Source of the DNA: Geothrix limicola | GTDB taxonomy: Bacteria; Acidobacteriota; Holophagae; Holophagales; Holophagaceae | NCBI RefSeq assembly: GCF_030268085.1 | Contig: NZ_BSDE01000003.1 | Coordinates: forward strand, 372,001 to 436,000 | DNA: 64,000 nt | Direction: 5' to 3' | Shown: in pieces, positions 4,186-64,000 of the stretch | Numbering within the stretch: position 1 is the first letter of the stretch | Layout: each line of letters begins with the position of its first letter | Made by a program: the position numbers and the translations under genes | The notes under the pieces: model-generated | The model's input: only the letters and a program-made list of their open reading frames with translations | Told to the model about the DNA's origin: nothing | The model's database searches: none

Positions 4186-5355
4186 ATGAAGCACACCCGT
4201 GAATGCCCTGAATCCCCACGGTGGATCCGGAATTGGGATCGCGTTTGTCTTGGTCTCTTGGCTTCGTCAATGGTTTTGAATTTCGGGTGTGGTGGGAAAG
4301 CGGAATCGTCTGCGCCCGTTTCCACCCATGGCCCGCCCTCACCGAAGCTGGACAGTTGGACTGGCACAGGGGACATGGGTACAGGCCGAGCGAATCACGC
4401 CGCGACGATGCTTCAAAATGGCCGTGCCATGGTGGTCGGGGGAGATGGCCTATCCGCCAATCTATCCAGCACCGAAGTCTACGATCCCTCGACCGCCACC
4501 TGGACCGCGACGGGAAGCATGGGTGTTGGCCGCAGCCACCCCACCATCAGCCTGCTCAGGAACGGAACCGTCCTGGTCGCGGGCGGCGGAAGTGAGCCCT
4601 CAGGCCTCTCGAGTACTGAAATCTGGGAGCCGGCAACAGGGACATGGACCTTCGCGGGCCCCTTGAAAGCAGCGCGCACACTCCATGCGATGACCCAGTT
4701 GGCCGATGGGAAAGTCCTCGTGGCGGGCGGGCGCGGTGATTCGGGTCCTCTGGCCAGCACGGAGATCTATGATCCCTTTTCAGGCGTTTGGACGCCCTCG
4801 GGCGATATGACCTTTGCACGATCAAGTTTCACGATCACCCTCCTGAGGGATGGGAGGGTGCTTGCGGTGGGCGGCCTTGGGCGTTCCGGTCCATTGATGA
4901 GTGCAGAGATCTACGACCCGGGGACAGGCGCCTGGACCTTTGCCGGAGACACGGGAACAGCTCGAATGGATCACACGGCCACGCTGCTTCCCAATGGGAA
5001 AGTCCTCGTGGCGGGAGGATACGACCTTGAGGTCCTGGCCCTTTCTCAGATCTATGACCCGGCGACCGGCCACTGGACCACCACGGGGAAGTTGACCGTC
5101 GCACGCAGGGGCCACACTGCCACCGCCCTTCCGAATGGGAAGGTTCTGGTCGCTGGAGGGATGGATGCAACGGGTTCGCTGGCAAGCACGGAGACCTACG
5201 ACTTCGCGACGGGCCTATGGACATCCATTGGAAACCTGACATCGGCACGGGGCCGTCACGCCGCCACCTTGATCTCGAATGGCGCGGTCCTCGTGACGGG
5301 TGGGTCGATCGCTGCAGGAACGGCTTCAACCAGTGCGGAAATCCGCCATTTCTAG
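4186..5355 (+). CDS. kelch-repeat lipoprotein
   Basis: A 389-residue exported protein. The chosen ATG follows GAGGAA; it gives a charged N-terminus, a hydrophobic stretch and a Cys in LNFGC, so a lipoprotein is likely although the lipobox is not ideal. The mature part is built of about seven kelch-type units of roughly 47 residues, each with a HAATLLPNGKVLVAGG-like strand followed by STEIYDPATGxWT. By family this folds as a beta-propeller resembling the galactose-oxidase propeller; no catalytic Cys-Tyr centre is evident, so binding at the cell surface is more likely than oxidation. It has its own sigma-54-like promoter. Confidence 0.85.
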   Translation: MKHTRECPESPRWIRNWDRVCLGLLASSMVLNFGCGGKAESSAPVSTHGPPSPKLDSWTGTGDMGTGRANHAATMLQNGRAMVVGGDGLSANLSSTEVYDPSTATWTATGSMGVGRSHPTISLLRNGTVLVAGGGSEPSGLSSTEIWEPATGTWTFAGPLKAARTLHAMTQLADGKVLVAGGRGDSGPLASTEIYDPFSGVWTPSGDMTFARSSFTITLLRDGRVLAVGGLGRSGPLMSAEIYDPGTGAWTFAGDTGTARMDHTATLLPNGKVLVAGGYDLEVLALSQIYDPATGHWTTTGKLTVARRGHTATALPNGKVLVAGGMDATGSLASTETYDFATGLWTSIGNLTSARGRHAATLISNGAVLVTGGSIAAGTASTSAEIRHF

Positions 5356-53124: not shown

Positions 53125-55218
53125 TCAGCGCTCGGGTGCGGGAGGTGGCGGTGGGGGCGGCGGCACGGCCGTGGGAGGCGCGGGCGGCGCAGGGGGAGCC
53201 GGCGGGGCCGGGGGCGCATCGGGACCTTCCAGGGACGGCGGAGGCGGCGGAACCGGGGGATGGACCGAACGCGGAGGTGCCGGGGGCCGCGGCGTCCTGG
53301 GGGTCTTCGGCGTCTTGGAGGGCGAGGCCGCTTCCTTCTTCAGCTGGTCCAGGCGGCTCTGGAGCGCCTTCATCTCGGCCTGGATTGCCTCCATCTCAGC
53401 CTTGGGATCGTCCTCGTCATGGACGAAGGTGCGGACGTGCATGCGAGGCACGTGGACGGGCGGGACATGGATGGGCGGGATGTGGAGATCCTTCTCGATC
53501 TCGATGTCCAGCGGTCCTTCGCTCCGGTGCTCGAGCATGGTCCATTCACCGGGTTCGCCGTGTTTGCGTCGGACTTCCATGCGGACCTGGCGGCTTTCCT
53601 TCTTGGCCTGCTCGATGAGGGCCTTCAGCTCGGGATCATTTTTGAGCCGCTCCCCCTCGGCCCTGAGCTTGGCGCCCTCGGCCTTGAGGTGCTCGGCTTC
53701 GGCCTGGATCTTCGCCTTCTCTTCGGGGCTCATGTTGGCGCCGCGGGTTTCCAGATCTTTCGTCATGGCCTCGAATTCGCGGGCGTGGGCCTCCATCTCC
53801 CGGGCATGGGCTTCCATGTCGCGGGCGCGGTCCTCCATGTGCCGCGTGCGGAACTCCACGACGCGCTCACGCTCATGGCCCGGACGGCGCTGCTTGATGC
53901 TCTTCACGACGCCGCGCAGCCAGTCCTTCCCGTCCTGATCGAGGGCCTGCTCCTTGCCATTCACGGTGTAGGTGGCCTTGTCCTTCGTGGCCGCATAGGC
54001 GCGGGCCTTGCCGTCCTTCTGCTCCTCCACGCGGAAGGTGCCACTCGCCACCGTCACGGGTTCGGGGGCTTCGGCATTGAGCTTGACGTCGCCCTGGATC
54101 TTCACGGTGAGCTTGCGCTGTTCGTCGGAGGCGGGCGCCTTCGGATCGGCCTTGGGGGCGGGATCCTTCGGCTTGTCCTGCATGGCGACGCCGGCTGCGC
54201 CGAGGAGGGAGGCCGCCAGGACGGCCAGGGCGGTGACCCGCGCGCCGCTGGTGATGGGCAGGGCGGGGTGGAGCAGGTGGCGGACGCGATGCATGAGGGA
54301 ACCTCCGTTGGCGGCCAGGGCCAGATGGTTGGGAGCAGGGGTGAGGGGCTCGCGCAGGGCCTCAAGGTCCGTGAGGGCGCGGGCCAGGATCAGGGGATCG
54401 CCGCAGAGGTCGGCCGCCACGTCGTCGCAGCAGAGCTCGCGCTCGGCGCGGATGCGGGCCGACAGCCACCAGATGGCGGGATGGTAGAAGAGCAGCACTT
54501 CGACGAGGGACTGCAGCAGGTTCACGGCGAAATCCCCGCGGCGGATGTGGGCCAGCTCGTGGGCGAGGATGGCCTCCAGTTGCAGGGGCGACAGGCCCGA
54601 TAGCGCGCAGGCCGGCAGCAGGATCACGGGCCGCAGCCAGCCCAGGGCCGTGGGAACTTCCACCGCCGCGGACTGCAGCAGGCGCACGGTGCGCGACAGC
54701 TTCAGCTCCCGGCAGAGGCGGGACAGCACCAGGTGCCATTCGGCGGGCACGGGCAGGGCGCTGCGGCGGCGCAGCCGCTGTACGCGGACCCAGCCGCCGA
54801 GGAAGCGGCCCGACAGCAGCAGCACGCCCAGGGCCCATCCACCCAGCAGCCAGGGCAGGGCGGGATCCAGCTTGGCCTTCAGGCGTTGGGTCAGGGCCAG
54901 GTTGGGGGTTGGGGCCGGCGCCGCGGCGACGGCTGCCGGAGCCGTCTCCACGCTCAGGGAGAGCGCCCCCACGGGAGCCGGGGCCTGCCGCTGGAGGGTG
55001 AGGAAGGTGATGGCCGGGGCGGCCACCATGAGCACGAGGAAGGCGCAGGCCATGCCGTAGCGCGCCTTGGGGTTGGCCCGTCGGAGCAGGGTCAGCGCCA
55101 GCCAGGCCAGCAGGCCCAGGGCCGTGCCCTGCCACAGGAAATGGAGGAGGCTCCAGCCCAGGGCCTGGGACGCCGGGTGGGCGACGGCCTGCTGGACGAG
55201 CGACAGGAACGGGTTCAT
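53125..55218 (-). CDS. M56-family (BlaR1-like) membrane metallopeptidase with coiled-coil tail
   Basis: A 697-residue protein. Residues 1-330 are the M56 domain: four or so membrane helices, the zinc motif LAHELAHIRRGD and the following Glu in RAERELCCDD. A fourth or fifth helix lies near 325 (VTALAVLAASLLGAAGVAMQ). The remaining 350 residues are outside: a long charged coiled coil with heptads such as AHAREMEAHAREFEA, a run of HxPP-type repeats (IPPIHVPPVHVPRMHV), then a proline-rich end. BlaR1 instead carries a penicillin-binding sensor; none is seen here. By family, activation leads to cleavage of the BlaI repressor encoded by the overlapping gene. Confidence 0.88.
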   Translation of the reverse strand: MNPFLSLVQQAVAHPASQALGWSLLHFLWQGTALGLLAWLALTLLRRANPKARYGMACAFLVLMVAAPAITFLTLQRQAPAPVGALSLSVETAPAAVAAAPAPTPNLALTQRLKAKLDPALPWLLGGWALGVLLLSGRFLGGWVRVQRLRRRSALPVPAEWHLVLSRLCRELKLSRTVRLLQSAAVEVPTALGWLRPVILLPACALSGLSPLQLEAILAHELAHIRRGDFAVNLLQSLVEVLLFYHPAIWWLSARIRAERELCCDDVAADLCGDPLILARALTDLEALREPLTPAPNHLALAANGGSLMHRVRHLLHPALPITSGARVTALAVLAASLLGAAGVAMQDKPKDPAPKADPKAPASDEQRKLTVKIQGDVKLNAEAPEPVTVASGTFRVEEQKDGKARAYAATKDKATYTVNGKEQALDQDGKDWLRGVVKSIKQRRPGHERERVVEFRTRHMEDRARDMEAHAREMEAHAREFEAMTKDLETRGANMSPEEKAKIQAEAEHLKAEGAKLRAEGERLKNDPELKALIEQAKKESRQVRMEVRRKHGEPGEWTMLEHRSEGPLDIEIEKDLHIPPIHVPPVHVPRMHVRTFVHDEDDPKAEMEAIQAEMKALQSRLDQLKKEAASPSKTPKTPRTPRPPAPPRSVHPPVPPPPPSLEGPDAPPAPPAPPAPPAPPTAVPPPPPPPPAPER

Positions 55219-55598
55219 CGCTTCCTCCCTTCCGCGTGATCGAGCATTTTCCGGATTTCCGCCAGTTCCTCGTGGCTGGCCTTGCGGGTGGCCAGGGCCT
55301 GCATTACCAGGTTCAACGAGGACCCCCCGAAGGCCTTGTCCAGCAGGTCATCCAGCAGGTGCCGCTGGGTCTGGGTCTGCGTCTGCGTGGTGGAGAAGGT
55401 ATGCACCCGGTCCGTCACGTCCCGCTGCACCAGGCCCTTCTCGTGCATGATCTGCAGCATTTTGAGCACGGTCGTGTAGCCCAGCTCCCGCTCTTCGGAC
55501 ATGACCTCGAAGACCTGGCGCACGGTGCTGGGCCCCCGCTCCCAGAGCACCCGCAGGATGGCGAGCTCGGCGTCGGTGGGTCGGACGACTGGGGGCAT
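55215..55598 (-). CDS. BlaI/MecI/CopY-family repressor
   Basis: A 127-residue winged-helix repressor. The family signature PTDAELAILRVLWERGPSTVRQVFEVM and YTTVLKMLQIMHEKGLVQRD is clear, followed by the dimer region. GGAG lies nine bases before the ATG; the longer frame is not used. Its stop overlaps the M56 start (ATGA). Two matched operators overlap its promoter, so it represses its own operon and is relieved when the M56 protease acts. Confidence 0.93.
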   Translation of the reverse strand: MPPVVRPTDAELAILRVLWERGPSTVRQVFEVMSEERELGYTTVLKMLQIMHEKGLVQRDVTDRVHTFSTTQTQTQTQRHLLDDLLDKAFGGSSLNLVMQALATRKASHEELAEIRKMLDHAEGRKR

Positions 55599-55627
55599 GG
55601 TGTTGTCTCCAGAGGAGGGGTGCCGAA

Positions 55628-55655
55628 AAGATACGACAGGTTTCGTAGTCGTCAA
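55628..55655 (-). promoter_or_regulatory. sigma-70-type promoter of the blaI-M56 operon
   Basis: On the minus strand TTGACG (55650-55655) and TATCTT (55628-55633) are 16 bases apart, close to the vegetative consensus. The expected start is about 23 bases before the repressor ATG. Confidence 0.6.
55632..55647. promoter_or_regulatory. BlaI-type operator 1
   Basis: Inverted repeat TACGA-N6-TCGTA. It lies between the -35 and -10 elements of the operon promoter and overlaps the latter. Confidence 0.65.
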
Positions 55656-55669
55656 CGAAAATCTTCGTA
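55654..55669. promoter_or_regulatory. BlaI-type operator 2
   Basis: Inverted repeat AACGA-N6-TCGTA with the core ACGA-N6-TCGT the same as operator 1. The two centres are 22 bases apart, two helical turns, so two dimers can bind on one face of the DNA. Confidence 0.65.
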
Positions 55670-56063
55670 ATCGGTTTAGTCGCCCGGGCTGATGTCGGGT
55701 GCGGAATGAACTGAAATTCCACGGAATGAACTGAAAATACGAGTATTGAAATTGTATGTGCTGCATCAATGTGGTTTACGATTGAACCACCATGCGGTGG
55801 CCGGTGTACCTGTGCGCTCCTGATTCAGGTCCGATCTGAGGCCAGGCTAGATGTCGTTGCCGGCTCTGCTGATCCCCGGGGGAGCTATCATCTGACCCTT
55901 GACTGGACCAGGGGTGAAGGAATTTTTTGAGGTGCCAAATTGGCACCTCAAGTCTCCGGGTAGGAATAGAAGAAGGGCCGAGACGAGCCGCCGCAGATAT
56001 CCGACCCCCTGCTTCCGTTCATGAGGGGTGCGATTCGGCTGGGCTTGGGATCACGTTCAGCAC
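55670..56063. other. intergenic boundary between core genes and efflux cluster
   Basis: No gene is supported in these 394 bases. They separate the blaI operon from the end of the TolC-like gene. A 25-base perfect palindrome lies at 55927-55951. The composition changes around here to lower GC. Confidence 0.5.
55927..55951. repeat. perfect 25-bp palindrome
   Basis: Twelve-base arms TTGAGGTGCCAA / TTGGCACCTCAA meet around a single A. A T-run precedes it on the plus strand and no T-run follows on either strand, so it is not a normal terminator. It may be an operator, a cruciform-forming site or an insertion boundary. Confidence 0.6.
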
Positions 56064-57554
56064 CTAGGGGATCATCCTGGCTGCGACAGAGGTGTTTGAT
56101 GGCAATGCCTTGGGTGCACCTGGGGCATCCCAGCCGCCACCAAGTGCCCTGTAGGCGGCTACGGCTGCGCGGGCTGATTCCGTTTGTGCCTGCGCTTGTG
56201 CATCGGAGGCACGCAGCACGTTTTCGTCAGCCTGCAGGACTTCGATCAGGCTGACGACGCCCTTTTGATAGGCTGCAAACGCAGCTGCTCGCGCCCGGCT
56301 GAGCGAATCCACACCCTGGACGAGCACGGCTGCCTGCTCTTCGCGCTTCACCAGCGCCGAGAAGGCGTTTTCCACGTCCTCCGTGGCGTGCAGAGCGGCC
56401 AGCCGGTAGGCAGCCAGCAACTCGGCTTCCCGGCCCTTTGCGGCGTCGATCTGCGCATTGATGCGCCCGAAATCAAACAGGCGCCAGCGCAGACCCAATA
56501 TTCCAGCGGATTGCCTGGCACCATTTGAGAACAGGTTGCCGCTGGACACCGACGTCGCGCCGCCGATCAGTCCGCTCAGGGAAAATTTGGGATAGTACTC
56601 AGCGACGGCCACCCCAATACGGGCATGTGACGCGGCGAGGAGGCGCTCAGCTGCGATCAGGTCTGGCCTTCGCCGGAGTAATTCACTGGGCGACTCTGTC
56701 CCTACGATCTGCGGCGCGGCGGGGATGCTTCCTGTATCAGCCAGTTCAGCCCGATGCGTGCCGGGCGCCGAACCCAATATCACATCCAGAGCGTTCATGG
56801 CCACGTCCAGACCCGCCTCAAGGACCGGTATCGATGCTCGAACCTGGGCCAGGGCACCCTCGACCTGCCTCACTTGAAGTTCGGCAACCAACCCCTTGCC
56901 ATATAGAAGATTGACGAGCGAAAGCAATTCCTCTTGCGTGTGCACCTGTCTCTGGGCCACCCCAAGACGTGTCTGCAATCCACGGATGCTGATGTAGATG
57001 TCGGCGGTTTGGGCAGCCACAGCCAGTCGCGTAGCCACTACTCCGGCTTCTGAAGCCTGATAATCCGCGAAGGCCGCTTCCCGGCCGTGACGCAGGCCAC
57101 CGAATAGATCGAGTTCCCAACTCGCGCTGAGATTCGCTTCATAGGCCTTGCCGTACCGGTCGAAACCCGGCACCGAATTCAAGACTCGCCCCAAGGGCGT
57201 CTCGACGGATTGGTAGGCTCTGGCCGCTTGACCGCCGACCATTCCGAAAGGCAGCAACGCGGCATTAGCCGCACCAAGTCCGGCGCGCGCTTGGGTGACC
57301 CGAGCGGATGCCTGCGCCAGATCCAGATTCTGCTCCAGGGCAAGCTGAACGAATCGGCTCAGCTTTGGATCACCGAAACCTGTCCACCATGCAAGGAAAT
57401 CTCCATGGGCAGTGGCATGCCGCTGGTCCACAGCCGCCTGACCCAGAAACCGGTCTGGCATGGAGACACGCGGTCCGATGTTGTCGGAACCAGCTACGGT
57501 TGCCGCCGAAAGGCTGGCAACAAGGAGGGGAGCAAGGATGTGTTTTGAGGGCAT
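56064..57554 (-). CDS. TolC/OprM-like outer membrane efflux protein
   Basis: A 496-residue exported protein of the NodT/OprM family. A signal peptide is seen without the usual lipobox Cys. Two repeats carry the family features: DPKLSRFVQLALEQNLDLAQASARVTQARAG, DLFGGLRHGREAAFADYQAS, then RRRPDLIAAERLLAASHARIGVAVAEYYPKFSLSG. By family it forms the trimeric channel of a tripartite pump. It diverges from tetR across a region with one copy of the 24-base operator. Confidence 0.92.
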   Translation of the reverse strand: MPSKHILAPLLVASLSAATVAGSDNIGPRVSMPDRFLGQAAVDQRHATAHGDFLAWWTGFGDPKLSRFVQLALEQNLDLAQASARVTQARAGLGAANAALLPFGMVGGQAARAYQSVETPLGRVLNSVPGFDRYGKAYEANLSASWELDLFGGLRHGREAAFADYQASEAGVVATRLAVAAQTADIYISIRGLQTRLGVAQRQVHTQEELLSLVNLLYGKGLVAELQVRQVEGALAQVRASIPVLEAGLDVAMNALDVILGSAPGTHRAELADTGSIPAAPQIVGTESPSELLRRRPDLIAAERLLAASHARIGVAVAEYYPKFSLSGLIGGATSVSSGNLFSNGARQSAGILGLRWRLFDFGRINAQIDAAKGREAELLAAYRLAALHATEDVENAFSALVKREEQAAVLVQGVDSLSRARAAAFAAYQKGVVSLIEVLQADENVLRASDAQAQAQTESARAAVAAYRALGGGWDAPGAPKALPSNTSVAARMIP

Positions 57555-57587
57555 GGGGTTCTCTCGAGAAAGGAGAAAGGCACGGTG

Positions 57588-57611
57588 GTGACCATATCAC
57601 CAAATGGTCAC
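57588..57611. promoter_or_regulatory. TetR operator, copy 1
   Basis: GTGACC-N12-GGTCAC, with the inner bases ATATCACCAAAT. It lies between the divergent starts of the outer membrane gene and tetR. The second copy at 58284 has the same arms and spacing. Confidence 0.7.
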
Positions 57612-57650
57612 TCGTTGTCCTTCTTTTTTGTTGAGAGTAGGCTTGGTCAT

Positions 57651-58268
57651 ATGAAGACGCCCCCCCCCTATCCCGTTTCGGGCCGTGGCCCAGCTGATCA
57701 CGAGGTCCGGGATCAAATCGTTGCAGCGGCCACCGAGCACTTCAGCCGATACGGCTACGAGAAAACGACCGTCTCGGATCTCGCCAAGGCTGTTGGATAC
57801 TCTAAAGCTTACATCTACAAATTTTTTGCATCCAAGCAGGTCATTGGAGAGATGATCTGTGCAGCCTGCCTGCAGGAGATCGAAGCTGAAGTCGGGGCGG
57901 CCATTGACGGAGTGGACCGGCCGCCTGAGAAGCTGCGGCGGATGTTCAAAGCGATCGTCGAGGCAAGCCTCCGCCTGTTCTTTCAGGATCGAAAGCTCTA
58001 TGAAATTGCCGCTTCAGCTGCCACTGAGCGCTGGCAAACAGCACTCGCCTATGAGGGGCGAATTCAGAAACTGCTACAAGGAGTCTTAGAGGAAGGGCGG
58101 CAGAGTGGGGACTTTGAACGGAAAACGCCCCTAGATGAAACCACGATGGCCATCTATCTGGTCATTCGCCAGTATCTTAACCCACTGCTTTTACAACATA
58201 ACCTCGACTTCGCCGAGGAAGCACCGGCTCGGCTCGCTGGCTTGGTGCTCCGGAGTTTGTCGCCGTGA
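57651..58268 (+). CDS. TetR-family regulator
   Basis: A 205-residue repressor. The helix-turn-helix spans about residues 20-65: IVAAATEHFSRYGYEKTTVSDLAKAVGYSKAYIYKFFASKQ. The rest is a helical ligand-binding domain. The start chosen is the ATG after TTGGTCAT; the ribosome site is weak, and a frame from 57585 would run through the operator. Flanking operators suggest that it controls itself, the outer membrane gene and the pump genes. Confidence 0.9.
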   Translation: MKTPPPYPVSGRGPADHEVRDQIVAAATEHFSRYGYEKTTVSDLAKAVGYSKAYIYKFFASKQVIGEMICAACLQEIEAEVGAAIDGVDRPPEKLRRMFKAIVEASLRLFFQDRKLYEIAASAATERWQTALAYEGRIQKLLQGVLEEGRQSGDFERKTPLDETTMAIYLVIRQYLNPLLLQHNLDFAEEAPARLAGLVLRSLSP

Positions 58269-58283
58269 TGAAAAGAATTTGAA

Positions 58284-58307
58284 GTGACCATTGACCAAAT
58301 TGGTCAC
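58284..58307. promoter_or_regulatory. TetR operator, copy 2
   Basis: GTGACC-N12-GGTCAC, inner bases ATTGACCAAATT, with A and T extending each arm by one base. It lies 16 bases after tetR and 45 bases before the adaptor gene, so pump transcription is probably controlled from here. Confidence 0.7.
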
Positions 58308-58351
58308 TAGTGCCAGCATGAACGTCCCGACAACTTCCTCGAGGGACCTTC

Positions 58352-59470
58352 ATGCTCAGACCACGCCTCTCACCATCAACTGTCCTCACGTGGCTCTTGC
58401 CGCTTGCTCTCCTCGCTTGCGGGCACGAAGGGGGAGTCGATCCTCGCACCCAGGCCCCGCTGGTCCGTGCCGTGGCCGTTCAAGGGGCAGCCTCCGGCTC
58501 GCGCATCTTTACGGGAACCGTAGCCGCGCGGGTTCAGAGCGACCTGGGGTTTCGCGTCCCCGGCAAGGTGCTGGAGCGACTCGTTGATGCGGGGCAGACG
58601 GTCAAGCGCGGCCAGCCCCTCATGCGCATCGACCCAGTTGATCTGAAGCTCGCTGCTCGCGCGCAGCAGGAAGCGGTTGCCGCCGCCCGGGCGCGAGCAC
58701 AGCAGACCGCGGAAGACGAAGCCCGCTACCGCGATTTGCGTGGAACAGGTGCCATCTCCGCGTCGGCCTATGACCAGATCAAGGCTGGGGCGGATATGGC
58801 GAAAGCGCAGCTCAGTTCCGCCGAGGCCCAAGCTGATGCCGCCCGCAATGCCAGCCTCTATGCGGAGCTGGTGGCCGATGGTGATGGGGTGGTCATGGAA
58901 ACCCTGGCCGAGCCTGGCCAGGTGGTCGGCGCTGGACAGATCGTGGTGCGCTTGGCCCACGCGGGCCAACGCGAAGCCGTCATTCAGTTGCCGGAAACCT
59001 TGCGTCCCGCCGTCGGGTCCTCCGGACGTGCCACGCTCTTCGGCAAAGAAAGCGTTACGGTTCAGGCCAAACTTAGGCAGCTCTCGGGGGCGGCAGATCG
59101 ACTGACCCGCACCTTCGAGGCGCGGTATGTGCTTGAGGGCGACCTGGCAAATGCACCGTTGGGAACCACGGTCAGCGTCCAGATCGCGGACGGCCGTTCC
59201 TCGGCCCAAGGCGGATTGCTGGTGCCGATCGGCTCCGTGTTCGACGGCGGCAAGGGTCCAGGTGTATGGGTCATTAGTGGTGAGCCGACCAAGGTCTCCT
59301 GGCGGCCAGTCGCCATCCAGTCTCTAGACGACAATGCCGCCTACATCGTTGGACAGGTGAAGCAAGGCGACCAGATCGTCGCACTGGGGGCCCATCTGCT
59401 GCATGAAGGCGAACGGGTTCGGATCGCCGGGCAGACAGTCGCTTCCGCAGCCCAGGGAGTGCACCCGTGA
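58352..59470 (+). CDS. RND efflux periplasmic adaptor lipoprotein
   Basis: A 372-residue adaptor of the HlyD/AcrA type. The lipobox LLACG gives Cys23. The barrel-sandwich part (VQSDLGFRVPGKVLERLVDAGQTVKRGQPLMRID), a helical hairpin of Ala/Gln-rich sequence and a beta-barrel follow. By family it joins the inner-membrane pump to the outer channel. GAGGGA precedes the ATG. The pump gene overlaps its stop (GTGA). Confidence 0.92.
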   Translation: MLRPRLSPSTVLTWLLPLALLACGHEGGVDPRTQAPLVRAVAVQGAASGSRIFTGTVAARVQSDLGFRVPGKVLERLVDAGQTVKRGQPLMRIDPVDLKLAARAQQEAVAAARARAQQTAEDEARYRDLRGTGAISASAYDQIKAGADMAKAQLSSAEAQADAARNASLYAELVADGDGVVMETLAEPGQVVGAGQIVVRLAHAGQREAVIQLPETLRPAVGSSGRATLFGKESVTVQAKLRQLSGAADRLTRTFEARYVLEGDLANAPLGTTVSVQIADGRSSAQGGLLVPIGSVFDGGKGPGVWVISGEPTKVSWRPVAIQSLDDNAAYIVGQVKQGDQIVALGAHLLHEGERVRIAGQTVASAAQGVHP

Positions 59471-62400
59471 GCGAAGGCCGATTCAACCTGTCGGCGCTGG
59501 CCGTACGCGAGCGCTCGATTACCTTGTTCTTGATTTGCCTGATCTCCTTGGCTGGACTCGTTTCCTTCTTCAAGTTGGGCAGAGCGGAAGACCCGGCCTT
59601 TACTGTCAAGGTGATGACCATCGTCACAGCCTGGCCTGGAGCCACCGCCCAGGAAATGCAGGATCAGGTCGCGGAGAAGATTGAAAAGCGCATGCAGGAG
59701 TTGCGCTGGTATGACCGCACCGAGACTTACACAAGGCCAGGCCTGGCCTTCACGACCCTCACCTTGCTTGAAAGCACGCCTCCCTCGGAAGTGAAGGAGG
59801 AGTTCTACCAGGCACGGAAAAAGGCGGGTGATGAGGTAGCCAATCTTCCGCAAGGTGTGATTGGCCCCATGATCAACGATGAGTATTCGGATGTGACCTT
59901 CGCCCTGTTCGCGCTGAAGGCCAAGGGCGAAACGCAGCGCATCCTGGTCCGCGACGCGGAGACGGTTCGCCAGCGGCTACTCCACGTCCCGGGTGTAAAG
60001 AAGGTCAACATCATCGGCGAGCAGTCTGAGCGCATCTATGTGGAATTCTCCCACGAGCGTCTGACAACTCTCGGTATCAGCCCGATGGACGTGTTCGCCG
60101 CGCTAAACGGCCAGAACGCCCTGACACCAGCAGGTTCCGTAGAGACCAAAGGCCCCCAAGTGTTCATCCGTCTGGACGGCGCTTTCGACAAGCTGCAGAA
60201 GATCAGCGACACGCCGATCGTGGCGCAGGGACGAACTCTGAAGCTCTCGGATATCGCTACCGTCAAGCGCGGGTACGAAGATCCATCCTCATTCATCATC
60301 CGTAATGGCCGGGACCCCGCGTTGCTCTTGGGCATCGTCATGCGCGACGGATGGAATGGACTCGATCTGGGCAAGTCGCTGGATCAAGAGGTTGGCAAGA
60401 TCAACAACGAACTCCCCTTGGGCATGGGTCTGACCAAGGTCACGGATCAGGCCGTCAATATCAGCTCCTCGGTCAATGAGTTCATGGTCAAGTTCTTCGC
60501 CGCCTTGCTGGTGGTTCTGCTGGTGTGCTTTGTGAGCATGGGCTGGCGAGTGGGAGTCGTGGTCGCGGCGGCCGTGCCGCTGACGCTTGCCGCCGTCTTC
60601 ATGGTGATGGCCGCCACCGGAAAGAATTTCGACCGCATCACCTTGGGTTCCCTGATCCTGGCGCTGGGCCTTCTTGTGGACGACGCCATCATTGCCGTCG
60701 AAATGATGGTCGTGAAGATGGAAGAGGGCTACAGCCGCGTCGCCGCATCCGCATATGCATGGAGCCTGACGGCCGCGCCCATGCTTTCGGGCACGCTGGT
60801 CACAGCTGTGGGCTTCATGCCTAACGGCTTCGCCCGGTCCACCGCGGGCGAATACACCAGCAATATGTTCTGGATCGTCGGCATCGCACTCATCGTGTCC
60901 TGGATTGTGGCCGTCGTTTTCACCCCCTATCTGGGCGTCAAGTTGTTGCCTGAAATCAAGAAAAGCCATAGGGGCCACGCGGCGCTCGAAGTTGCCCTCT
61001 ACGACACACCGCGCTACAACCGCTTCCGGCAGTTGTTAGGTCATGTCATCGCGCGCAAGTGGCTGGTCGCTGGTTCGGTGGTTGGCCTGTTCATCGTATC
61101 CCTGCTCCTCATGGGTGCGGTCAAGAAGCAGTTCTTCCCGATTTCAGATCGCCCTGAAGTGCTGGTTGAGGTTCAGATGCCCTACGGCACCTCCATCACC
61201 CAGACAAGTGCCGCCGCAGCCAAGGTGGAAGACTGGTTAGCTAAGCAAAAGGAGGCCAGGATCGTCACAGCCTACATCGGGCAGGGCGCACCCCGCTTCT
61301 ACTTGGCCATGGGCCCAGAAATGCCTGATCCCTCCTTCGCCAAGATCGTGATTCGCACTGACGGTCAGGATGAGCGGGATGCGCTTAAACTGCGGCTGCG
61401 CGAAGCCATCGCAGGAGGGCTCGCTTCAGAGGCGCGTGTTCGCGTAACCCAGTTGGTGTTCGGACCCTATTCTCCCTTCCCGGTCGCCTACCGGGTCATG
61501 GGCCCGGACCCGGAGAAACTGCGAAGCATTGCGAATCAAGTGCAGCAGGTTATGGAAGCCAGCCCGATGATGCGCACGGTCAACTCTGACTGGGGCACCA
61601 TGACACCGACGCTGCACTTCACCCTGCAGCAGGATCGATTGCAGGCCGTTGGGCTGACTTCCAGTGCAGTGGCGATCCAACTTCAATTCTTGCTGAGCGG
61701 TGTTCCCGTCACCACTGCGCGTGAAGATATCCGGACGGTCCAAGTGGTAGCCCGCACTGCAGGGAATACCCGACTTGACCCGGCAAGGATTGGTGACTTC
61801 ACACTGGTTGGCAGCAGTGGCCAGCGGATCCCGCTGTCGCAGGTGGGCAAGGTCGAGGTACGCATGGAAGAGCCGATCATGCGGCGCCGCGACCGGATGC
61901 CGACGATCACAGTCCGGGGAGACATCGCTGACAGTCTGCAACCACCGGATGTTTCCGGAGCCATCCTCCAGCAGCTTCAGCCCATCATGGCAAAGCTGCC
62001 TAGCGAGTACCGAATCGAGCAGGCAGGTTCTATCGAGGAATCCGGCAAAGCGAACAAGGCGATGTTGCCGCTGTTCCCGATCATGCTGGCAATGACCCTG
62101 TTGATCATCATCCTCCAAGTGCGCTCGATTTCGGCCATGGTCATCGTGTTTTTGACCAGTCCTCTGGGTCTTATCGGCGTGGTGCCGACCCTGATCCTCT
62201 TCCAGAAGCCCTTCGGTATCAATGCACTGGTAGGTCTGATCGCGCTTTCGGGGATCCTGATGCGCAACACACTGATTCTGATTGGGCAGATCTCCCACAA
62301 TGAACAAGCGGGGCTTGACCCATTCACCGCGGTGGTGGAGGCGACCGTGCAAAGAGCCCGGCCAGTCGTCCTGACCGCGTTGGCCGCGATCCTTGCTTTC

Positions 62401-62547
62401 ATCCCGCTGACCCATTCGGTGTTCTGGGGAACGCTCGCTTACACCTTGATCGGAGGCACACTCGCCGGAACGATCCTAACTCTGGTGTTCCTGCCAGCCA
62501 TGTATGCCATTTGGTACAAGATCAAGCCAGTCCACGTCCATAGCTGA
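59467..62547 (+). CDS. RND efflux pump, inner-membrane subunit
   Basis: A 1026-residue proton-driven transporter with 12 membrane helices and two large periplasmic loops. The proton-relay aspartates are in the helix LGLLVDDAIIAVEMMV; other marks are TAWPGATAQEMQDQV in the porter domain and GFMPNGFARSTAGEY. By family it exports drugs, solvents or metabolites; no heavy-metal-type charged helix pattern is evident, so a hydrophobic substrate is more likely. It starts at GTG overlapping the adaptor stop. Confidence 0.95.
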   Translation: MSEGRFNLSALAVRERSITLFLICLISLAGLVSFFKLGRAEDPAFTVKVMTIVTAWPGATAQEMQDQVAEKIEKRMQELRWYDRTETYTRPGLAFTTLTLLESTPPSEVKEEFYQARKKAGDEVANLPQGVIGPMINDEYSDVTFALFALKAKGETQRILVRDAETVRQRLLHVPGVKKVNIIGEQSERIYVEFSHERLTTLGISPMDVFAALNGQNALTPAGSVETKGPQVFIRLDGAFDKLQKISDTPIVAQGRTLKLSDIATVKRGYEDPSSFIIRNGRDPALLLGIVMRDGWNGLDLGKSLDQEVGKINNELPLGMGLTKVTDQAVNISSSVNEFMVKFFAALLVVLLVCFVSMGWRVGVVVAAAVPLTLAAVFMVMAATGKNFDRITLGSLILALGLLVDDAIIAVEMMVVKMEEGYSRVAASAYAWSLTAAPMLSGTLVTAVGFMPNGFARSTAGEYTSNMFWIVGIALIVSWIVAVVFTPYLGVKLLPEIKKSHRGHAALEVALYDTPRYNRFRQLLGHVIARKWLVAGSVVGLFIVSLLLMGAVKKQFFPISDRPEVLVEVQMPYGTSITQTSAAAAKVEDWLAKQKEARIVTAYIGQGAPRFYLAMGPEMPDPSFAKIVIRTDGQDERDALKLRLREAIAGGLASEARVRVTQLVFGPYSPFPVAYRVMGPDPEKLRSIANQVQQVMEASPMMRTVNSDWGTMTPTLHFTLQQDRLQAVGLTSSAVAIQLQFLLSGVPVTTAREDIRTVQVVARTAGNTRLDPARIGDFTLVGSSGQRIPLSQVGKVEVRMEEPIMRRRDRMPTITVRGDIADSLQPPDVSGAILQQLQPIMAKLPSEYRIEQAGSIEESGKANKAMLPLFPIMLAMTLLIIILQVRSISAMVIVFLTSPLGLIGVVPTLILFQKPFGINALVGLIALSGILMRNTLILIGQISHNEQAGLDPFTAVVEATVQRARPVVLTALAAILAFIPLTHSVFWGTLAYTLIGGTLAGTILTLVFLPAMYAIWYKIKPVHVHS

Positions 62548-62589
62548 TTTGCCATCCATCTCAATCCACCCACGCAGAAAGGAACTGTC

Positions 62590-63396
62590 ATGTCGAACCC
62601 TAAGGTTGTCGTTATTACCGGCGTATCTTCAGGTATCGGACGTATCACGGCGTTTGCCTTGGCCAGGCGGGGTTGTCAGGTATTTGGAACCGTGCGTAAT
62701 ACCGCCAACGTCAACCCACTTCCCGGAATTGAACTCATCGAGATGGACGTCCGAGACGAGAAGTCCGTTCAACAAGGAATCCAGGCCATTATTGCTCAGG
62801 CCAAGCGCATCGACGTGCTTGTGAATAGCGCAGGTGTGGCTCTTCTGGGAGCGACGGAAGAAACGTCGGTAGCGGAAGCCCAGGCGCTGTTCGACACCAA
62901 TGTTTTTGGCATTTTGCGCACAACCCAAGCCGTGCTGCCGCATATGCGCGAGCAGCGTTCCGGCCGCATCGTCAACATCAGCTCGGTGTTGGGCTTTCTT
63001 CCGGCCCCGTACATGGGGCTCTATTCGGCATCGAAGCATGCTGTTGAAGGACTGTCTGAGACCTTGGATCATGAGGTGCGCCAATTCGGAATCCGTGTAG
63101 CGCTCGTCGAACCTTCCTTCACCAAAACGAACCTGGATATCAATGCGCCCCAGGCGGCTTCTAAAATTCAAGCCTACGATAACGAGCGCAACATCGTTTC
63201 CCAGGCCATTCAAAAAAATGTCCATAAAGCTCCAGAGCCCAATGGCGTTGCCGATACAATCGTCGAGGCAGCATTGGGCGCATGGAAAATGCGGCGTACG
63301 CCAAAGGGCGAGGCCACGCTTCTGCGCAGACTGCGCCGCTTCATGCCCGCTGGCCCCGTCGATTCAGGCCTGCGGAAATCATTCGGTCTTAATTAA
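62590..63396 (+). CDS. short-chain dehydrogenase/reductase
   Basis: A 268-residue classical SDR. The cofactor loop is ITGVSSGIGRITA, followed by the NSAGVAL motif. The catalytic Ser and Tyr-x3-Lys are in VNISSVLGF and LYSASKHA. AAAGGA precedes the ATG. It follows the pump by 42 bases and likely belongs to the TetR-controlled unit; the substrate may be related to the exported compound. Confidence 0.92.
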   Translation: MSNPKVVVITGVSSGIGRITAFALARRGCQVFGTVRNTANVNPLPGIELIEMDVRDEKSVQQGIQAIIAQAKRIDVLVNSAGVALLGATEETSVAEAQALFDTNVFGILRTTQAVLPHMREQRSGRIVNISSVLGFLPAPYMGLYSASKHAVEGLSETLDHEVRQFGIRVALVEPSFTKTNLDINAPQAASKIQAYDNERNIVSQAIQKNVHKAPEPNGVADTIVEAALGAWKMRRTPKGEATLLRRLRRFMPAGPVDSGLRKSFGLN

Positions 63397-63485
63397 ATAC
63401 TTGGGAAGTTTGCAAAGAGGCCACAGACCAACCCAAAGCTTTTCGTGTTCGAGAATAATGCGCGCGCCCCATCGAGGAGAACCTA

Positions 63486-64000
63486 TGACCTCTCCAAACA
63501 CAGACTGGACCGCCCAGCAGGAAGCCGCACTGCAACGATCGGTTGCCGGTGGGGGCGGCCCTGGTCTTGCTCGAGTGGAACAACTCATCAACAAGAGCGG
63601 ACGCGCGATTCTCGAAGCCATGATGTCGGGAGAGTTGCCCTATCCACCCATGAACCAAACCATGAACATGACGTTGCTGGAGGTGGATAACGGTCGCGCC
63701 GTCTTTCAAGGCATACCGCAACGAGAACACTACAACCCGTTGGGCACGGTGCATGGCGGGTGGTTTGCAACGCTGCTGGATTCAGCCATGGGCTGCGCTG
63801 TTCAAACCACGCTGCCAGCCGGGCGCTCCTATACGACGGCCGGACTCAACGTGAACATCGTCCGGCCTGCCTCTCATACGACTGGTCCCCTACGCGCGAT
63901 TGGTGCCGTGATTCATGGCGGCCGACAGATCGTCACAGCCGAAGCTCGTATCGAGGACGAGCGTGGCAGGCTGTACGCCCACGCGACCGCAACCTGCTTT
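63486..64000 (+). CDS. PaaI-type hotdog thioesterase, partial
   Basis: At least 171 residues, open at the window end. GAGGAG precedes the ATG. The hotdog signature NPLGTVHGGWFATLLDSAMGCAV and YTTAGLNVNIVRP identify the PaaI-like thioesterase family, which hydrolyses acyl- or aryl-CoA. It follows the SDR gene by about 90 bases. With the SDR it hints at chemical modification linked to the pump. Confidence 0.9.

Follow-up and report, generated by a model that had tools for sequence, protein, structure and literature searches.

Paired putative TetR-type operators with predicted embedded promoters and a covarying leader hairpin at an efflux locus of Geothrix limicola and many Proteobacteria

The closest described counterparts of the locus reported here are RND efflux pumps under the control of TetR-type repressors. 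In Caulobacter crescentus, TipR represses the RND-NodT pump encoded by acrAB-nodT, is autoregulated and occupies four chromosomal sites as determined by ChIP-Seq; unlike in the locus presented here, no leader hairpin is described in the available excerpt of the source (PMC10754441). In E. coli, the TetR repressor EefR is encoded beside the RND pump genes eefABCD and, as far as the accessible part of the report goes, its palindromic operator occurs only at its own locus, although this operator, TGAGAA-N6-TTCTCA, differs from ours, is a single site, and the pump genes share an operon with eefR (PMC12482432). The Klebsiella pump KexEF was considered as a homologue and set aside, since the excerpt at hand gives its regulator as EnvR-like (PMC7331594). 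Here, we analyze a stretch of 64,000 nucleotides from Geothrix limicola (contig NZ_BSDE01000003.1, positions 372,001 to 436,000; hereafter the window), in which a tetR gene is flanked by two 24-bp palindromes in the gene order outer-membrane efflux channel (minus strand), site 1, tetR, site 2, adaptor, RND transporter, SDR oxidoreductase and thioesterase. Long palindromes of ~24-28 bp also serve as operators of the TetR-family pump repressors AcrR and QacR, whose half-site sequences differ from those found here.

Our analysis favors a single explanation, to which we assign a probability of about 0.72 on comparative sequence evidence, that combines two operators, two repressed promoters and a hairpin that masks the adaptor start in read-through transcripts. 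The TetR-family repressor would bind both flanking palindromes and close the channel and adaptor-pump promoters, and a ligand would release the repressor, opening both. Transcripts from the adaptor-pump promoter would start within the 5' arm of the hairpin, making the full stem impossible and leaving the adaptor to be translated, whereas transcripts running in from tetR would carry the full hairpin, so that the adaptor start would be masked and poorly translated. The simplest function of the hairpin would be to stop read-through from the upstream, co-directional tetR gene from making pump. Two systems offer precedents by analogy for such a read-through-masking hairpin. In phage T4, according to the part of the report available, long upstream transcripts of the lysozyme gene e fold over its start site, and transcripts from proximal promoters, which are without the 5' part, are well translated (PMC3014915). 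For Bacillus subtilis sigG, the accessible text proposes a hairpin that blocks read-through translation and cannot form in the transcript from the gene's own promoter (PMC5942855). Gene e is a phage lysis gene, whereas here a repressor-controlled pump operon is concerned and the effect is only predicted, and the sigG hairpin has 20 or more pairs and belongs to a sigma-factor gene, whereas the one presented here has ~9-11 pairs with its 5' arm over a -10 element.

Both palindromes have the form GTGACC-N12-GGTCAC. Predicted operator site 1 (GTGACCATATCACCAAATGGTCAC, 57588-57611) lies in the gap between channel gene and tetR and predicted site 2 (GTGACCATTGACCAAATTGGTCAC, 58284-58307) in the gap between tetR and adaptor gene, both exact and both where an earlier note on this DNA had placed them. 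That note had suggested searching the genome for further copies, many unrelated ones being what would speak against an operator; these two are the only exact copies in the window's 4,233,904-base assembly. The extended pattern, at no more than two mismatches, gave 8 forward and 4 reverse matches in the same assembly, of which 4 of the 12 are the two sites and the remaining 8 carry 2 mismatches each, and a control with the reversed pattern gave 5 + 4 matches. The exact 24-mer occurs in one or two copies in 12 of 59 relatives (13 of 60 with the window's own genome), one of the 12 being the sister species G024, whose 24-mer is its true site 2. A lone exact 24-mer is at chance level, and it is the pairing and conservation of the sites that carry the argument; two copies, one on either side of one tetR, are more than chance would give.

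Conservation was assessed in one scan of 84,980 species genomes, from which we took the best 80 of 543 confirmed relatives, with more beyond (TetR identity 72-85%); these 80 homologous loci are proteobacterial as judged from organism names, and counts out of 81 include the window. A site of this pattern lies just upstream and another just downstream of tetR in all 80 homologous loci (80/80 for each), with the consensus GTGACYAT-N8-WTRGTCAC, the letters common to both sites being the arms GTGACYAT and WTRGTCAC. A full arm score of 12/12, allowing Y/R at positions 6/19, is reached by site 1 in 78/81 loci and by site 2 in 79/81. In 75/80 loci, the channel gene lies next to tetR in divergent orientation, the adaptor gene comes next in 79/80, and the RND gene is present in 79/80. 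Site 1 scores 11/12 in L024, which retains a broken channel gene, 10/12 in L041 and 12 in L018, L026 and L028, these being the 5 loci without an adjacent intact channel gene. At L018, which lacks the channel gene, the divergent neighbor of tetR (4693-4917) is another gene of TetR type (28% over 75 residues). Tandem tetR genes in L028 (77 and 82% identity) and L071 (80 and 77%) are accompanied by extra operators spaced 694 bp, one tetR length.

We extended the comparison to 31 further loci from sister species, plasmids and other genomes, leaving out L140 as a duplicate of L022. Among the 25 with a TetR identity of at least 53%, site 1 matches at least 11/12 arm positions in 24, and site 2 does likewise in 24; one of the other 6 keeps both sites at at least 11/12, and the rest (TetR 40-47%) have degenerate sites or none. 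In 16 whole genomes picked from the 80 site-carrying loci, the extended motif at no more than one mismatch is found at the tetR locus in 16/16 and is nearly confined there, the exceptions being G072 with its tandem set, G068 with one perfect additional site and, in each of G061 and G068, a single-mismatch stray. The start codons of tetR and the channel gene are 96 bp apart, within the spacing of <200 bp that Ahn et al., in the excerpt available, give as predictive of a TetR regulating its divergent neighbor (PMC3511530), which counts for the proposed regulation. In all, the comparative evidence supports the earlier proposal that the sites are TetR operators for channel and pump. A literature search on the operator strings returned only an unrelated match, subscription journals being mostly uncovered and RegPrecise outside the search.

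The arms are shared and the cores are not. The earlier note had described similar AT-rich cores, a description that does not survive the logos from 81 loci, in which each core is conserved in its own, different way, mostly ATAATAC in site 1 and TTGACT in site 2, apparently because each overlaps its own sigma70-like promoter. The predicted channel-gene promoter (57594-57621, minus strand) consists of a -35 element AGGACA (57621-57616), N16 and a -10 element TGATAT (57599-57594), with 4/6 and 3/6 matches in the window. Across the 81 loci it reads TGGACA-N16-TATTAT on the minus strand, the commonest elements being TGGACA (28) and TATTAT (50), with at least 4/6 matches at -35 in 73/81 and at -10 in 76/81. 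The predicted adaptor-pump promoter (58291-58319, plus strand) combines a -35 element TTGACC (58291-58296), N17 and a -10 element CAGCAT (58314-58319), matching at 5/6 and 3/6, with a predicted +1 near 58326; across loci it reads TTGACT-N17-CANAAT toward the adaptor, the commonest elements being TTGACT (72) and CATAAT (21), with 5/6 at -35 in 77/81 and 6/6 in two more, and at least 4/6 at -10 in 67/81. Site 1 would cover the -10 element and spacer of the channel-gene promoter; in the adaptor-RND-SDR(-thioesterase) promoter, site 2 would cover the -35 element and a large part of the spacer. As the operators overlay both promoters, one repressor would close both. The operator arms are centered ~18 bp apart, which by analogy suggests two TetR dimers per operator. 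QacR binds its operator as two dimers.

Two other readings of the sites were rejected. The inner 15-bp palindrome of site 2 (TGACCAAATTGGTCA) was tried as the real operator, and the logos place its inner TTGAC in site 2 and not in site 1, a confinement that fits a -35 element. Site 1 was also considered as a terminator, and the region 57400-58500 holds 2 terminator-like sites against 1.1 expected by shuffling. The promoter elements inside both sites and the leader hairpin are absent from the earlier note.

The predicted leader hairpin (58318-58353, plus strand; AUGAA.GUCCC / GGGAC.UUCAU) has a folding energy of -12.1 kcal/mol (z -2.85) and shows covariation in 81 loci. In the window, its core stem pairs 58318-58328 with 58343-58353, which puts the likely Shine-Dalgarno GGGA, together with the AU of the adaptor start codon, under the 3' arm, and across loci the stem ends on the adaptor AUG. 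In 81 aligned leaders, 76 of them distinct, 89.7% of paired cells hold a pair against 84.7% in shuffled alignments, and 44 cells are changed on both sides against 15.6, neither value being attained in any of 500 shuffles (0/500 for each); 7/11 stem pairs show a double change, as high as in 9/500 shuffles, and slid registers pair at only 31-56%. Mapped onto the tetR tree, the stem shows 17 double changes that preserve pairing, and registers slid by up to 4 show 1-5. Several enterobacterial loci retain the stem although their arms are entirely different in sequence, and the sister species G024 shows one compensated pair relative to the window, G-C in place of A-U. Where only one partner of a Watson-Crick pair changed, the result was G-U in 33 cases and A-C in 14 (p 0.008), an excess that points to RNA on the plus strand and not to a protein site. 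The covarying hairpin on the adaptor AUG is a predicted element newly found here. Its loop (site-2 positions 46-57) is itself conserved, at ~1 bit at many positions. A search of Rfam over 57400-58500 at E up to 1 returned only mir-4847, whose 21 bits fall far short of the gathering score of 100, and a known RNA family was rejected. A leader peptide from the ATG in the -10 region was likewise dropped: on our reading of the logos, the per-position values have no codon-position pattern, and indels in the loop would disrupt its frame.

The 5' arm was tested for duplex formation with the start region, and this duplex test (p<=0.05) was passed by 71/77 in-sample loci, by 18/24 further loci and, as control, by 3/64 channel-gene leaders. 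The 77 are the 81 loci minus L071, which has no adaptor start in range, and minus 3 that fail the spacing filter; the 24 are the 31 further loci minus 7 without adaptor start or site 2; and the controls are 64 of 80 channel-gene leaders. As tetR is divergent to the channel gene, no such hairpin is expected there, which fits the 3/64. Save in the loci that fail this test, a conserved stem thus lies over the Shine-Dalgarno sequence and/or the AUG, in the manner of T4 gene e and sigG.

The position of the 5' arm is central to the proposed mechanism. It occupies site-2 positions 35-45, reaching into both the -10 element (31-36) and the discriminator, with the predicted +1 near 43, so a transcript from the adaptor-pump promoter would be without most of the arm. 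In the window, the fold of a transcript that begins at 58326 is no more stable than those of shuffled sequences (z 0.39), and the AUG is predicted to be unpaired at 0.00 in the read-through and at 0.88 in the own-promoter transcript. The mean predicted AUG openness is 0.30 in read-through against 0.55 in own-promoter transcripts over 80 loci, and 0.38 against 0.61 over 24 further loci, the AUG being more open in the own transcript in 63/80 and 21/24, respectively. Fold-back inhibition in Tn10/IS10 is a similar case.

Several observations weigh against this explanation. Both -10 elements of the window match at only 3/6, and a generic promoter scan of the window found no promoter at these sites. 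Only 16/25 of the further loci at 53% TetR identity or more combine a -35 match of at least 5/6 with a -10 match of at least 4/6, and the Klebsiella locus L100 keeps the site-1 -35 element though it has no divergent channel gene. Within the stem, 43 pair-breaking changes are counted on the tetR tree, and the pair 18-44 is broken in 30/76 distinct rows. The duplex test failed in 6/77 in-sample loci (the Xanthomonas loci L030, L031, L055 and L069, with L023 and L042 marginal) and in 6/24 further ones (L099, L106, L137, L150, L153, L155). In the window, part of the GGG stays paired in the transcript from 58326, and the openness of the Shine-Dalgarno stretch differs little between own transcript (0.54) and read-through (0.51), so masking there would rest on the AUG; moreover, longer RNAs fold more anyway, which makes the comparison of openness supportive only. 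Finally, we found no promoter that would transcribe tetR itself, which leaves the source of read-through an assumption.

Some of these points lend themselves to a different view of the hairpin, in which the operators act as proposed and the hairpin lies within the main adaptor mRNA, starting upstream of 58318, where it would damp or gate translation, for instance as an RNA thermometer or a protein-binding leader. We regard this as unlikely, though worth serious attention: the loop is conserved beyond the needs of insulation and both -10 elements of the window are weak, whereas the 5' arm overlaps the best-placed -10 element and could not be transcribed from its own promoter, and the -35/N17/-10 geometry recurs (79/81 and 67/81). 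It is quite improbable that the hairpin caps or stabilizes the 3' end of the tetR mRNA and leaves the adaptor start alone. It does begin 49 bp past the tetR stop (58318 vs 58268), yet the stem keeps to the adaptor AUG across loci, and the four loci with tetR and site 2 and no adaptor found nearby (L101, L105, L148 and L151, falling into two pairs alike in the sequence downstream) have their best duplexes at -7.2 to -8.6, which is weaker than in 20/24 adaptor-bearing loci, the other 4/24 overlapping that range.

We give very little credence to a DNA site for a second regulator. The leader palindrome does surround the predicted start site, where repressors often bind; its arms, however, change wholesale but together, whereas a protein site would keep its letters, and the excess of G-U over A-C among single changes argues in the same direction. 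A similarly slight chance attaches to the 24-mers having arisen by chance or serving another regulator. The frequency of a lone 24-mer among the 59 relatives would allow this, but both copies accompany this tetR in 80/80 loci, and the tandem tetR genes of L028 and L071 bring extra operators with them. The combination of operators, repressed promoters and read-through hairpin remains the explanation that we prefer.

The genes of the cassette are assigned as follows. The channel gene (56064-57554, minus strand) is of the OEP/NodT type (Pfam OEP, 2.1e-42; TIGR01845, 275.6 bits against a cut-off of 210.05). The tetR gene (57651-58268, plus strand) encodes a TetR-family repressor of 205 aa (Pfam TetR_N 7.1e-12, TetR_C_27 5.2e-11), its start being best placed at the ATG at 57651, as a longer open reading frame from 57585 passes through site 1. 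Its N-terminal helix-turn-helix domain (PF00440, 7.1e-12) scores 45.4 bits against a cut-off of 24, which places the protein in the TetR/AcrR family; among the named NCBIfam TetR equivalogs (AcrR, BetI, RutR, MtrR and others), 16 models match at E<=0.001 and none above its cut-off, the best scores being BetI with 39.7 bits against 201.3 and AcrR with 28.7 against 271. Downstream, all on the plus strand, follow the RND periplasmic adaptor (membrane fusion protein) gene (58352-59470; TIGR01730, 192 bits against 94.9), the RND transporter gene of the AcrB/AcrD/AcrF family (59467-62547; Pfam ACR_tran 8.1e-148), an SDR oxidoreductase of the PRK06179 subfamily (62590-63396; NF004823, 441.5 bits against 310) and a hotdog-fold thioesterase that runs off the window (63485-64000; TIGR00369, 82.3 bits against 36.6), probably a further gene of the operon. 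Adaptor, transporter and channel occur together in the window and in the homologous loci, as expected of a tripartite RND efflux system. To the left, at 53125-55769 on the minus strand, lie adjacent genes for a BlaR1-type M56 peptidase (PF05569, 2.4e-27) and a penicillinase-repressor-type regulator (PF03965, 1.6e-25).

The earlier note had also placed the SDR, and "perhaps the thioesterase", under the same switch. At an identity limit of 60%, below which L061 (27%) and L089 (41%) fall, an SDR homologue stands behind the RND gene in 52/80 loci, and 4 others (L060, L082, L087, L090) have it behind the channel gene, a total of 56/80 that supports the first of these suggestions. Of the 24 loci without an SDR, 4 (L043, L062, L065, L080) stop short of the end of the RND gene and are uninformative. 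In 15 of the 16 whole genomes, read downstream, the SDR follows the RND gene in 13 and a thioesterase follows the SDR in 2 (73% and 82% identical), and a thioesterase homologue (62%) lies behind the channel gene in 1/80 loci (L058), so the reserve in the note's wording was apt. No further operator was found near either gene in the window; both would therefore be co-transcribed with the pump operon.

Genes kept with the operators elsewhere hint at the nature of the ligand. In two Pantoea plasmids (L101, L105), tetR and both operators precede fabF, and the 13.6 kb fetched showed no RND pump; in a third (L104) fabF follows the RND gene. The company of SDR, thioesterase and fabF may hint that the ligand is hydrophobic or fatty-acid-related. 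The perfect third operator of G068, with TTGACA at the same place, lies ~7 kb away and precedes a FadL/OmpP1-type outer-membrane gene (L165:3829, L114:1501). An SDR-like fragment (18 residues, 61%, E 0.006) lies between the two, so this operator may be a decayed copy, and it was dropped as a clean FadL promoter and as evidence on the ligand.

Apart from the genome that holds the window, only 1/59 relatives has the tetR gene (E<=1e-20), a congener whose copy is 98% identical. The G+C content is 56-62% in the cassette and 62-73% in the 10 kb on its left side, and the RND transporter of the cassette is 77-88% identical in 79/80 proteobacterial loci. The cassette (56064-64000) was most likely acquired horizontally with its switches and looks to have come from Proteobacteria.

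In summary, this work provides a precise, testable operator for an uncharacterized repressor clade of many Proteobacteria, clinical and plant-associated isolates included, and the conservation of this operator narrows down the genes that the repressor controls. We lean, with some reservation, toward a widespread two-layer lock, in which one repressor would act on two operator-embedded promoters and a hairpin would make only own-promoter transcripts translatable, shared by many Proteobacteria and, by transfer, the window's genus. If so, initiation inside the stem would act as a license for translation in chromosomal efflux operons. If the hairpin works as read, efflux operons would be protected from transcripts that run in from their own repressor gene, a difficulty that arises generally where a repressor gene lies just upstream of its targets.
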